From Procambarus clarkii (lineage: Eukaryota; Arthropoda; Malacostraca; Decapoda; Cambaridae), in contig NC_091154.1 of NCBI RefSeq assembly GCF_040958095.1, positions 46,484,232 to 46,548,231 of the forward strand: DNA of 64,000 bases, written 5' to 3'. Positions 42,805-55,108 of this stretch are shown one piece after another (position 1 is the stretch's first letter; each line of letters begins with the position of its first letter). A program made the position numbers and the translations under genes. The notes under the pieces were generated by a model. That model was not told the origin of the DNA and searched no databases. It was given only the letters and a program-made list of their open reading frames with translations.

Positions 42805-42817
42805 AGTAGTGTAATGT

Positions 42818-42897
42818 GCGACTAGAACCGCGCGCGCCATCTGCCCAGGTGGCTCTATAGAGCCAGCTGGGCAGGTGGTGCGCAGGTGTCTAGTCGC
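42818..42897. other. TIR-12 left subterminal hairpin
   Basis: An 80-nt dyad starting 13 nt from the end. Outer arms GCGACTAG and CTAGTCGC (8 bp); then GCGCGCCA with TGGTGCGC, CTGCCCAG with CTGGGCAG, and a perfect central palindrome TGGCTCTATAGAGCCA. Only a few mismatches or wobbles. It could be a transposase-binding or processing site (inference). Confidence 0.88.
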
Positions 42898-45019
42898 AAA
42901 GGGTTTGGGGGGGGAATTTTCCCGGAAGTTTGACGCGTGTGAGCGTCCGGTGTTTGGGTATGTGGTCAAGAAAGATGGGAGGTCATGTTGTTGGGGGTGT
43001 AGGAGAGTATGTGTGGTATGTGGTAGAGTAAGAAATACAAGGATATGAGTGGAACATGTGGAAAGAGTAGTTAAATATGTATGTGTGTTTGCCGTAGACT
43101 TAATCCTGTGTGTAGATAATAGTTTTGATGATAGTAAGTAAGCTATGTAGAGGCTGAGTGTAGGTGTGAGGGGTCTCAACATAGGTGGATATGTTGTTTG
43201 GGGATGGGTGATGGAGGGGTGAGGGGAGCTTCCCCTCGGCGTGAGAGTGTTTAGGGCCATTTGTGGTTTAGACATCCATTATTTTCTTGGAGCTATGCAC
43301 ACAGCCAGAAGTGGGAGAGGAGGGTAGAAGAGAGCAGAGTCCAGGAGGAGGGATGTGGTCCATTTGCCTTAATGGCTTTTCGATGTCTTCAGAGTAGTCT
43401 TGGAGATGTTCACCCCAGCATGGCTCTCCCTCCACTGCGGATTTGTTAAGGAGGGGCGAGGTTCTTACTCCCGCCAGCAGGCCCTCACCAGCAGGCCCTC
43501 ACCTGCCAACCATCAATCATATACCTACCACATAGCTATGAGGAGTGACACCACATGTCCACATGGGTTACCTCTTCAAAGGCTGAGGCCTAACTGTTGC
43601 AAATGTCATCATCAACCTCTAACATAGTCAGTCATCCGCCCCCCCCCCCTCCATCCACATAGCAGGACATACCACATACCAACACCACCACCACCACACT
43701 GCTGGGAGTGACAGCAATACGGCATACCACACTCTCTCCTGACACAGCTCACACCGGCACATAGCATTGAGTGTGACAATGTTCTTTCTCAAAGGTGAGC
43801 CATGAGCGCAACATACAAATTCCAAAATGCAGTCCTGGGAGTTTGACACACATTGATTAACAAGCTATCTGATTATTTATACTTCTCTCTCTCTCTCTCT
43901 CTCTCTCTCTCTCTCTCTACATTATATGCGGGGTTACATAGTGTGTCAAGAACTACCTACGTGATGCTAAACAGTCCAATCTCACACAAGGCAGTCATAT
44001 GGGCAGTAAAGGCTTGCAGAGACGCATAAAGGAGTCCAGGACTGAACCCCAACAATTCATTTTTTAGCTAAGCAAGTTACAATCATGACGAGCTAGTTAC
44101 AAATTTCAATATAAGTCAACACATCGTCACGGAGACGCGATCTCTACCTACAAATTGTTCTTGTTAACTGTGATCATTGAAATGTATGCATGTTTACTCA
44201 ATCTCCATCACCTCTTCTTCCTACAGCCATTACTGCTGTGCAAACCTTGTAACACACAACGGCGTTATCATAGCAAGACAATGTCACAGAATGTTCAAGA
44301 CTCCTGAATGAATGAAACAGCAATCCGTCTCGTTAAGGTCTAACCTTCGTGGCGGTTTGAGGCGTTGTGAGATGGACGAGGTAGTGGGATGGCCTTACCC
44401 TCTCCCCATCCACCCCCACCAAACCCCTACCCCCCTTCCAAGCCCAAACCATCAAGCATCACTACACCTTTCCCAGACCGGATGTTCTGTGCAAAGCCTT
44501 TAGTATTATTTCTGATCATATGTGTAACCTTGTATGGCAATGTGACCAACATGGTATCATCATTCTTTGCTCAAATAGCATTTTTTAAGAATATCCAGTC
44601 ATAAGCTGGTCTTCAATCTTATTATTATAACAAATCATAATTTGTTGTAAACACAACTGCATGGGATATACATAGCAGTCAGTGGTTTCTCTCTCTCTCT
44701 CCAGATCATTTAATAGTTGGGGGAAAGTAACATCAATTCCTTTCTCCTGCCGCCGCTGTTCACGTATCTTTTTTTAATTTCACTTAGACCGACAGCGCAC
44801 CAGAGGATGGACGACTAAAGTCAATTTTCGAGCCCCCATCACTCTCACCCTTATAACCTCGTAACGTAACACGACCAATATGATGACATCGTTCTTGCCC
44901 AAATATCATTAATGTAACGTGACCAATATGGTAACTTCGTTCTTTGCCCAAATATCATTTTAAGAGTAACGAGCAACTTTCTGTCCGATGTCTGAATAAT
45001 GAAATGTGAACCCCATTTA

Positions 45020-52019: not shown

Positions 52020-55000
52020 CACTAATATTTATATGGTAAGAGATGTAATGGAGATGGACTAAGTCATACTTTCATAATGTTATTTGGACTGCAGAAAGTT
52101 GATATGCATTACGTTACAATATGTTACAGGGGCTAAAACTGGTAGACACCAATATTTATATGGTAAGAGATGAAATGGAGATGGACTAAGCCTCACTTTT
52201 CATTTCAAAATGATATTTTGGACTGCGAAAAGTTGATTTGCGTTACGTTACGTTACGTTACATAACGTTACATTGTGTTACAGAGAGCTAAAACTTGCAG
52301 ACCGTAATATTTATATGGTATGAGATGTAAAGGAGATGGGCTAAGTTATACTTTCATTTAAAAATGTTATTTGGTCATCAGACAAAGTTGATTTTCCACG
52401 TTACGTTACAATGTGTTACAGGGTCTAAAACTGGTAGACACCAATATTTATATGGTAAGAGATGTAATGGAGATGGACTAAGCCTCACTTTTCATTTCAA
52501 AATGACATTTTAGACTGCAGAAAGTTGATATGCGTTATGTTACAATATGTTACAGAGGGCTAAAACTGTCACACAGTAATATTTATATGGTAGGAGATGT
52601 AATGGAGATGGACTAAGTCTCACTTTCATTTAAAAATGTTATTTTGGTCTGTAGAAATTTGATGATTTCCGCGTTACGTTACAATGTGTTACAGAGGGCT
52701 AAAACTGGTAGACACCAATATTTATATGGTAAGAGATGAAATGGAGATGGATTAAGCCTCACTTTTCATTTCAAAATGATATTTTGGACTGCAGAAAGTT
52801 GATATACGTTACGTTACAATATGTTACAGAGGGCTAAAACTTGCAGACCTTGGTATTTATATGGTATGAGATGTAATGGAGATATTGTGTTTGGCTAAAT
52901 GGGGTTCACATTTCATTATTCAGACATCAGACAGAAAGTTGCTCGTTACTCTTAAAATGATATTTGGGCAAAGAACGAAGTTACCATATTGGTCACGTTA
53001 CATTAATGATATTTGGGCAAGAACGATGTCATCATGTTGGTCGTGTTACCTTACAAGGTTGTAAGGGTGAGAGTGATGGTGGCTCGAAAATTGACATTAG
53101 TCGTCCATCCTCTTGCGCTGTCAGTCTAAGTGAAATGAAAATAAGATACGTGAACAGCGGCGGCAGGAGAAAGGAATTGATGTTACTTTCCCCCAACTAT
53201 TAAATGATCTGGAGAGAGAGAGAGAGAACCCACTGACTGCTATGTATATCCCATGCAGTTGTGTTTACAACAAATTATGATTTGTTATAATAATAAGATT
53301 GAAGACCAGCTTATGACTGGATATTCTTAAAAAATGCTATTTGAGCAAAGAATGATGATACTATGTTGGTCACATTGCCATACAAGGTTACACATATGAT
53401 CAGAAATAATACTAAAGGCTTTGCACAGAACATCCGGTCTGGGAAAGGTGTAGTGATGCTTGATGGTTTGGGCTTGGAAGGAGGGTGGGATGGGGGTAGG
53501 GGTTTGGTGGGGGTGGATGGGGAAAGGGTAAGGCCATCCCACTACCTCGTCCATCTCACAACGCCTCAAACCGCCACGAAGGTTAGACCTTAACGAGACG
53601 GATTGCTGTTTCATTCATTCAGGAGTCTTGAACATTCTGTGACATTGTCTTGCTATGATAATGCCATTGTGTGTTACAAGGTTTGCACAGCAGTAATGTC
53701 TGTAGGAAGAAGAGGTGATGGAGATTGAGTAAACATGCATACATTTCAATGATCACAGTTAACAAGAACAATTTGTAGGTAGAGATCGCGTCTCCGTGAC
53801 GATGTGTTGACTTATATTGAAATTTGTAACTAGCTCGTCATGATTGTAACTTGCTTAGCTAAAAAATGAATTGTTTGGGTTCAGTCCTGGACTCCTTTAT
53901 GCGTCTCTGCAAGCCTTTACTGCCCATATGACTGCCTTGTGTGAGATTGGACTGTTTAGCATCATGTAGGTAGTTCTTGACACACTATGTAACCCCGCAT
54001 ATAATGTAGAGAGAGAGAGAGAGAAGTATAAATAATCAGATAGCTTGTTAATCAATGTGTGTCAAACTCCCAGGACTGCATTTTGGAATTTGTATGTTGC
54101 GCTCATGGCTCACCTTTGAGAAAGAACATTGTCACACTCAATGCTATGTGCCGGTGTGAGCTGTGTCAGGAGAGAGTATGGTATGCCGTATTGGTATGCT
54201 GTATTGCTGTCACTCCCAGCAGTGTGGTGGTGGTGGTGTTGGTATGTGGTATGTCCTGCTATGTGGATGGAGGGGGGGATGACTGACTATGTTAGAGGTT
54301 GATGATGACATTCGCAACAGTTAGGCCTCAGCCTTTGAAGAGGTAACCCATGTGGACATGTGGTGTCACTCCTCATAGCTATGTGGTAGGTATATGATTG
54401 ATGGTTGGCAGGTGAGGGCTTGCTGGTGAGGGCCTGCTGGCGGGAGTAAGAACCTCGCCCCTCCTTAACAAATCCGCAGTGGAGGGAGAGCCATGCTGGG
54501 GTGAACATCTCCAAGACTACTCTGAAGACATCGAAAAACCATTAAGGCAAATGGACCACATCCCTCCTCCTGGACTCTGCTCTCTTCTACCCTCCTCTCC
54601 CACTTCCGGCTGTGTGCATAGCTCCAAGAAAATAATGGATGTCAAAACCACAAATGGCCCTAAGCACTCTCACGCCAAGGGGAAGCTCCCCTCACCCCTC
54701 CATCACCCATCCCCAAACAACATAACCACCTATGTTGAGACCCCTCACACCTACACTCAGCCTCTACATAGCTTACTTACTATCATCAAAACTATTATCT
54801 ACACACAGGATTAAGTCTACGGCAAACACACATACATATTTAACTACTCTTTCCACATATTCCACTCATATCCTTGTATTTCTTACTCTACCACATACCA
54901 CACATACTCTCCTACACCCCCAACAACATGACCTCCCATCTTTCTTGACCACATACCCAAACACCGGATGCTCACACGCGCCAAACTTCCGGGAAAATTC

Positions 55001-55108
55001 CCCCCCAAACCCTTTGCGACTAGACACCTGCGCACCACCTGCCCAGCTGGCTCTATAGAGCCACCTGGGCAGATGGCGCGCACGGTTCTAGTCACACATT
55101 ACACTACT
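52020..55108 (-). repeat. TIR-12 right arm
   Basis: Inverted copy of 42805-45983. It carries the inverted tandem array (52020-52890), a shorter GA run (54008-54024) and the subterminal hairpin (55016-55095). Divergence from the left arm looks low, a few percent by eye. Confidence 0.92.
55016..55095. other. TIR-12 right subterminal hairpin
   Basis: Mirror of the left hairpin, ending 13 nt before the element end: GCGACTAG and CTAGTCAC outer arms, then the same TGGCTCTATAGAGCCA centre. Confidence 0.88.

Follow-up and report, generated by a model that had tools for sequence, protein, structure and literature searches.

A gene-less foldback element with Maverick-type ends in the crayfish Procambarus clarkii

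We analyzed a 64,000-nt stretch of Procambarus clarkii contig NC_091154.1 (the window, to which all positions refer unless another contig is named) and found that positions 42805-55108, hereafter the window element, form a single, precisely bounded insertion of 12.3 kb. This insertion is very probably a non-autonomous, gene-less foldback element linked to the Maverick (Polinton) family, because its end motif (AGTAGT), its terminal hairpin, and the outermost 0.7 kb of its sequence all have counterparts in a gene-bearing Maverick on contig C25 of the same genome. On the Maverick side, we found a 6-bp target-site duplication, the (AGT)2//(ACT)2 motif, and ends in common with a gene-bearing element; on the foldback side, we found 3.1-kb arms that are internally repetitive (135-bp and 48-bp repeats) around a middle with little or no coding sequence. 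A preliminary description of this DNA, made from the letters alone, had suggested either a non-autonomous relative of the Polinton/Maverick elements or a new foldback-type family, and both halves of that suggestion hold.

Borders, arms, and gene content of the window element

Both termini of the window element read AGTAGTGTAATGTG in the inward direction, and the mirror identity stops at the termini, the flanks being alike at only 3 of 20 bases. The doubled AGT and its complement correspond to (AGT)2//(ACT)2, the commonest end motif in vertebrate Mavericks (PMC8097293). The preliminary description had noted precise borders with an exact TTCATC duplication, near-identical inverted arms, and a Gypsy-2 pol frame that resumes in register on the other side, and all of this was borne out. 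The hexamers at 42799-42804 and 55109-55114 are the same, an alignment of the two arms contained 51 substitutions in 3026 ungapped columns (98.3% identity, with 282 gap columns in 11 openings), and joining the flanks with one TTCATC gave a Gypsy pol reading frame in register across the junction. The Gypsy copy is nevertheless decayed, since a TAG stop adjoins the insertion site and the upstream 74 residues of the frame, scanned alone, had no Pfam match. Coordinates of all features are collected in Table 1.

The arms contain a doubled 48-bp unit besides the 135-bp array, while a second array of 134-bp units is confined to the left side of the interior. The 1.7% divergence between the arms dates only their last equalisation. 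A 62-bp stretch stands in direct orientation on both sides of the block formed by a nested short interspersed element (SINE) and a nested long interspersed element (LINE) (47617-47678 and 51824-51884, 90% alike), and a portion of this stretch matches the end of the LINE open reading frame (ORF) at 61%.

Six-frame Pfam scans of the window element, in which stops were read as X and curated cut-offs applied, placed only the nested LINE above cut-off (RVT_1, 3.6e-34; Exo_endo_phos_2, 9.3e-11), and every row outside the LINE fell below it. A tblastn comparison of the window element with eleven proteins of the C25 element and of a further family member on contig C50 gave a best E value of 0.45. Genes for a protein-primed DNA polymerase (PolB) and an integrase were absent from both sets of results, and the window element is therefore not an autonomous Maverick. 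These profile searches agree with the earlier view of an interior made of arrays and later insertions, with no integrase, polymerase, ATPase, or transposase.

Table 1. Features of the window element and of its target site
Feature	Position	Strand	Basis or remark
Target: Gypsy integrase region, downstream side of frame	42471..42798	-	Integrase_H2C2 PF17921, E 9.9e-16
Left target-site duplication TTCATC	42799..42804	.	Exact match to 55109-55114
Left inverted arm	42805..45985	+	98.3% identical to right arm over aligned bases
AGTAGT end motif, (AGT)2 of Mavericks	42805..42810	+	Sequence and PMC8097293 motif
Outer left arm, homologous to ends of gene-bearing Maverick C25	42805..43519	+	91-92% identity
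Left terminal hairpin, 82 nt	42817..42898	+	DNA-parameter fold -41 kcal/mol, z -10.6
Dispersed-repeat fragment in left arm (also at 60721-60834, outside the element)	44008..44125	-	85% match
135-bp tandem array, left arm, about 7 units	45032..45985	+	Repeat analysis
Left interior: 134-bp array (about 46024-46887) and unique DNA; starts 38 bp from the turning point of the palindromic relative	45986..47710	.	
Nested tRNA-derived SINE-like repeat, AC tail, later insertion	47809..48213	+	Rfam tRNA 44 bits at 47809-47879; 90% match at 946-1346
Nested truncated LINE, AC tail, later insertion	48102..50957	+	RVT_1 3.6e-34; 94% match at 18861-20691; unmatched in palindromic relative
Right interior, no gene found	50960..51937	.	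Matched by C32; by C8 palindrome only in part
Right inverted arm	51938..55108	-	Collinear patches of match in C32 and C8 palindrome
135-bp tandem array, right arm	51984..52883	-	Repeat analysis
Mirror copy of dispersed-repeat fragment, right arm	53801..53918	+	85% match to 60721-60834
Outer right arm, homologous to ends of gene-bearing Maverick C25	54395..55108	-	91-92% identity
Right terminal hairpin, 82 nt	55015..55096	-	118-nt right end folds at -41.9 kcal/mol, z -11.6
ACTACT end motif, (ACT)2 of Mavericks	55103..55108	-	Sequence and PMC8097293 motif
Right target-site duplication TTCATC	55109..55114	.	Exact match to left copy; empty site in frame
Target: Gypsy frame resuming on other side	55115..55336	-	In-register join; no Pfam match for the piece alone

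The hairpin begins 12 nt from the tip at each end of the window element. When 21 ends of the family (18 distinct) were aligned, 96.0% of the hairpin cells were paired, a value reached by 0 of 500 shuffles, and 7 of the 36 hairpin pairs carried changes on both sides among the 18 distinct ends (2 of 500 shuffles). Several of these double changes belong to C33, a single lineage, and the shuffle control leaves relatedness in; the double changes are thus a good but not final indication that the stem itself is maintained. Two of the aligned ends, C13:1266386 and C13:1269391, lie on one strand and form no element pair. For 40 further ends, the first 100 nt folded with a mean energy of -33.9 kcal/mol (range -46.4 to -8.2), and the values down to -8.2 kcal/mol mean that a strong hairpin is not kept at every end. 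The hairpin could serve as a site to which the Maverick machinery binds, or it could have resulted from self-copying.

Related ends and gene-bearing partners in the genome

The preliminary description had proposed looking for further copies that have these ends and duplications, and for long copies that encode integrase and polymerase, and both kinds were found. The search covered the window's own assembly (4,027,284,227 bases; C numbers denote its contigs). A 24-base end pattern with at most two mismatches occurred at 960 places, compared with a single place for a reversed-pattern control, so the family has about a thousand recognisable ends; a 22-base end pattern gave 0 matches in viral contigs. 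Among 100 listed places of the 960, neighboring pairs less than 40 kb apart were convergent in 29 cases, divergent in 5, and in the same direction in 4. Two unpaired ends on C24 (46415868 and 46507644) stand 92 kb apart.

Exact 6-bp duplications flanked all seven distinct insertions examined in full, the window element included: TTGGTA at C32:7208863, TCCTTG at C33:16147281, AGCTGG at C50:2305195, ACAGCC at C25:36040610, AACATG at C56:9334586, and ACGCTC at C8:27597239, the last being exact only if the first element base is a mutated A. A second test drew on the 26 convergent pairs that remained in the list of 100 places: 20 of them were sampled by their 120-base ends, and six pairs on C49 were left out. 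An exact 6-bp duplication was observed in 13 of the 20 pairs and at least five of six matching bases in 18, compared with 2 of 380 mismatched cross-pairs and 1 of 220 offset comparisons. Counted by distinct insertion, 12 of 17 were exact (the flanks show that three of the twenty repeat another), and all 13 exact duplications measured 6 bp, none longer.

The gene-bearing partner at C25:36040610 is 29.1 kb long, enlarged by nested retroelements, and flanked by an exact 6-bp duplication. Its ends have the same hairpin, with AGTAGG instead of AGTAGT, and its 0.7-kb terminal repeats are 91-92% identical to window 42805-43519. Above cut-off, it carries a PolB gene (DNA_pol_B_2 PF03175, 6.8e-11) and a packaging ATPase gene (Pox_A32 PF04665, 1.2e-9). 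A 447-residue protein had no Pfam match, and its structural model (pLDDT 73.9) best matched the mavirus major capsid protein (E 4.1e-15, TM score 0.48, 12% identity), with matches to other double-jelly-roll capsids as well; this protein is predicted to be capsid-like. A compact 13.3-kb element at C21:45021917-45035199, compared over its middle 4 kb and its ends, has the same 24-base end type, an exact CACGGC duplication, and genes 92-97% identical to the C25 proteins (PolB 96%, ATPase 97%, integrase 97%).

The genome is rich in Maverick-type PolB. PolB of the C25 lineage was scored at 76 places out of 3773 candidates, with 95-100% identity, and 66 of the 76 lacked an internal stop; besides C25, at least four scored places lie inside the 29 listed pairs (C2:29111683, C21, C49:33046501, and C49:33155359). 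A trans source of Maverick proteins is therefore plausible. The PF03175 profile as a whole, for which 91 of 1428 candidates were scored, matched 95 times in this genome and not once in 14 control genomes. All 91 scored candidates exceeded the PolB cut-off, and 12 of the first 20 rows had open frames of 1251-1368 residues. A candidate integrase remnant in C8:27597239-27605757 (22 residues, 91%) was rejected as the edge of a 2.1-kb repeat; this repeat stands twice, 99% alike, around a retroelement nested in C25, so the 22-residue match is probably long terminal repeat sequence.

Some ends of this type have been amplified locally. Five convergent pairs of about 11.5 kb each recur with a 27-kb period at C49:33046501-33166919, at least two with PolB inside, and represent tandem amplification of a Maverick-containing block. 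At C56:10239900-10246600 (L023), element ends stand head to tail every 1.56 kb or so, about 97% identical to each other and about 90% identical to the window's outer arm, with further ends among the matches listed up to 10260485; this is a satellite-like array built from Maverick-type ends. The window insertion itself is also present at C5:55052302-55063009 and C125:1184566-1198124, within a duplicated block. Window 36538-58477 is a segmental duplication: at 97-98%, the left flank of the insertion is common to these loci over at least 6.2 kb and the right flank over about 3.1-3.4 kb, the right-hand match to C125 stopping at a 25-bp array (58211-58477). Three independent insertions at the Gypsy site were rejected on account of these shared flanks, which mean that one insertion was duplicated along with its surroundings.

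One 18.6-kb family member, C50:2305195-2323791, has ORFs of its own (L013:5440-6105 minus, L013:3799-4983 minus, and L014:1206-3813 plus). It carries an apoptosis-inhibitor-like BIR-RING gene (BIR 3.1e-8, RING 6.9e-12, cIAP1 match 1.4e-17), a 395-residue ORF that lacks a Pfam match, and paralogous ORFs that matched nothing at any cut-off, one of which is 90% identical to an ORF in C33 (L012:4948-5733). Its center (L015, C50:2311001-2317499) holds two largely identical ORFs of 883 (minus) and at least 612 residues (plus) that point apart and, by eye, look Penelope-like, and an adjoining GIY-YIG match (L014:2-406) is just below cut-off. A macro-domain-like reading of C50 ORFs, made by eye, was unsupported, with no row at the curated cut-off in Pfam or NCBIfam and a weak model, and a PDB search with two C50 ORFs gave no significant match.

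How the arms may have arisen

Arm length varies widely in the family: 183 bp in C32, 0.7 kb in C25, 1.3 kb in C33, 1.4 kb in C8:27597239, 1.5 kb plus a further 1.2-kb block in C50, at least 2.5 kb in C5b, 2.63 kb in C56 (99.4% identical, around some 430 bp), 3.1 kb in the window, and about 5.6 kb aligned in C37:38064370 (96.9-99.3%, from 0.2 kb inside the ends). C32, with its short arms, may be a precursor or may have been trimmed from a longer-armed form. The series extends to a complete 12.84-kb palindrome at C8:38983086-38995927, whose arms meet at 38989513/38989515 and differ by 12 substitutions and 77 gap columns over 6464 aligned columns; it has an exact TATATT duplication and unmirrored flanks (8 of 20 bases alike). 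Half of this palindrome matches the reverse complement of window 55108-45990 in the same order, in patches of about 77-94% identity: 55108-54921, 53227-53143, 52941-51779 (the 135-bp array and its border), 51773-51685, 47594-46441, and 46876-45990. The nested LINE and SINE are absent from the palindrome. Its turning point lies 38 bp past the base that corresponds to 45990, and the inner end of the window's left arm is at 45985; owing to these neighboring turning points, both elements are readable as a unit corresponding to 45990-55108 plus a mirror copy at its inner end. The mirror copy can be read as complete in C8 and as comprising only the outer 3.1 kb in the window.

The shared ends and the duplications suggest that the Maverick machinery moves the window family. 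Copying would be protein-primed, with a Maverick PolB starting at the doubled AGT on either end, and a Maverick integrase would insert the copied product, both proteins being supplied in trans. The arms would be a mirror copy of one end-half, 45990-55108, and the restriction of the window mirror to the outer 3.1 kb would reflect partial copying or loss of mirror DNA next to the center. The SINE and the LINE were inserted afterwards, making the interior longer, and segmental duplication subsequently gave rise to further copies of the insertion. We tentatively propose, at somewhat less than an even chance, that the foldbacks of the family represent integrated snap-back genomes from a virus-like, protein-primed element: the displaced strand of a Maverick-type replicon would fold back, copying would turn it into a head-to-head palindrome whose two ends are identical, Maverick integrase would insert palindromes like the 12.84-kb one on C8, and loss of DNA near the center would leave ordinary-looking foldbacks such as the window element. 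Snap-back copying followed by such loss would explain the geometry of the C8 and window elements most simply, and its probability is weakened by the fact that the two are collinear only in patches.

The arms may instead have grown gradually, through recombination and gene conversion between ends, expansion of tandem repeats, and recruitment of internal DNA, as reported for Galileo, with no special part for replication. This possibility, which we regard as doubtful though worth serious consideration, competes with the snap-back step and leaves the Maverick link untouched. It draws on Galileo, in which the longest terminal inverted repeats belong to transposase-less copies and contain tandem repeats and recruited DNA (PMC3573991), and on the arm lengths seen here, which vary from 183 bp upward in arms that hold a 135-bp array. 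A complete palindrome of 12.84 kb with unmirrored flanks and an exact 6-bp duplication is hard to reach stepwise, however, and its center lies just 38 bp beyond the base matching window 45990. It is unlikely that the family is a satellite virus-like lineage with accessory genes of its own, of the C50 type, from which the gene-less copies derive. The BIR-RING gene of C50, the ORF shared with C33 at 90%, and the same ends with exact duplications would suit such a lineage, but ORFs of this kind were present only in C50 and C33 among the members examined in full, nothing beyond BIR-RING reached a curated cut-off, two ORFs were without a PDB match, one model was weak, and the window copy contains no trace of these ORFs.

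An origin of the window element as a foldback from some other DNA-transposon superfamily (Mutator-like, IS3EU/GingerRoot, or other), with a resemblance to Mavericks at its ends only, is very improbable. Most foldbacks seem to belong to Mutator (PMC4079207), and IS3EU usually makes 6-bp duplications (PMC10045372), but the window element shares 0.7 kb of end sequence at 91-92% with a gene-bearing Maverick. A Mutator-type origin was rejected since the duplications are 6 bp rather than 8-10 bp (PMC4079207), and an IS3EU/GingerRoot origin since the termini are AG..CT rather than TA..TA (PMC10045372). Palindromic reads are possible with long-read chemistries, and an error of this kind could have produced inverted arms, an explanation that we consider extremely improbable: the arms differ by 51 substitutions, the flanks of both the window element and the C8 palindrome are unmirrored, both have exact duplications, and the window insertion is common to three loci. 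Because the insertion recurs at two other loci and its arms differ from each other, the arms are no assembly artefact.

Several observations weigh against the Maverick-linked reading or its proposed mechanism. In the C25 element, the integrase fragment (rve PF00665, 6.4e-5) is divided between two ORFs and falls below cut-off, as does a protease candidate (PF02902, 0.0048). In tblastn, the window element gave no remnant of a Maverick gene (best Maverick-gene E value 0.48), so the case for its descent from a coding Maverick depends on the ends. The inner arm (43.5-46 kb) matched the compared parts of C25 and C21 in a single patch of about 110 bp (44483-44586, 82%), and its DNA was therefore recruited from elsewhere or has diverged. 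The bare 14-mer end occurred at 114 places compared with 119 for its control, which is not above background and makes it unfit for counting. Of the 20 sampled pairs, C32:5140236 was without any duplication and another matched at 4 of 6 bases. About 1.7 kb of the C8 half inside its tip (the first 200 bp) had no match above the score threshold, window 50.96-51.68 kb is missing from the palindrome, and the patchy match of about 77-94% makes the two distant relatives.

Relation to known elements and implications

The window family resembles vertebrate Mavericks in its 6-bp duplications, (AGT)2//(ACT)2 motif, and inverted terminal repeats (PMC8097293), and elements with this end type here carry PolB, ATPase, integrase, and capsid genes. 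In contrast to those Mavericks, whose intact copies have terminal repeats of 46-1447 bp, the window element has 3.1-kb arms, no gene that we could find, and an 82-nt terminal hairpin that is not mentioned in the parts of PMC8097293 drawn on here. As in Galileo, long repetitive arms came to notice first and the gene-bearing partner later, and gene-less copies have the longest arms, with tandem repeats; unlike the window family, Galileo has a partner with a P-superfamily transposase, and in the portions of PMC3573991 considered, its longest arms measure 1,260 bp and no complete palindromes are described. Tetris is likewise a gene-less foldback with tandem repeats in its arms and has seeded satellite DNA, for which the counterpart here is the array of ends at C56:10240045-10260485, but it makes 8-10-bp duplications and was assigned to Mutator by its authors (PMC4079207). 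IS3EU/GingerRoot elements share the 6-bp duplications and belong to a superfamily with an integrase-like transposase; they differ in having TA..TA ends, in GingerRoot occasionally TG..CA (PMC10045372), and no such transposase was seen here. The foldback literature suggests repeated origin by gene loss and arm elongation (PMC4079207), and Mavericks accounted for only 0.01% of reads in two crayfish species (PMC13130569).

Adenoviruses give rise to snap-back or defective-interfering genomes, palindromic molecules that derive from one end of a protein-primed genome. Unlike those molecules, the palindromes described here are integrated in a host genome with target-site duplications. In open-licence PMC text, we found no Maverick-derived foldback among the matches listed and no paper on non-autonomous or miniature Mavericks or Polintons. 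Mavericks and the foldbacks of other superfamilies were known, and what appears new is a large gene-less foldback family that uses Maverick ends.

Mavericks stand between transposons and viruses, and their mode of replication is hard to test. Gene-less parasites that keep only the ends indicate which DNA the Maverick machinery may require, namely the doubled AGT, the hairpin, and a few hundred bases, and complete integrated palindromes are a footprint to be expected of linear, protein-primed replication. With this family, Mavericks join the transposon lineages that have given rise to foldback elements, and the family is a possible source of long palindromes, inversions, and satellite arrays in giant crustacean genomes. 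The C8 palindrome suggests that a foldback can originate when one end of a virus-like element is copied back on itself, and if the snap-back reading is true, the crayfish genome would be a fossil record of defective-interfering-like Maverick genomes.

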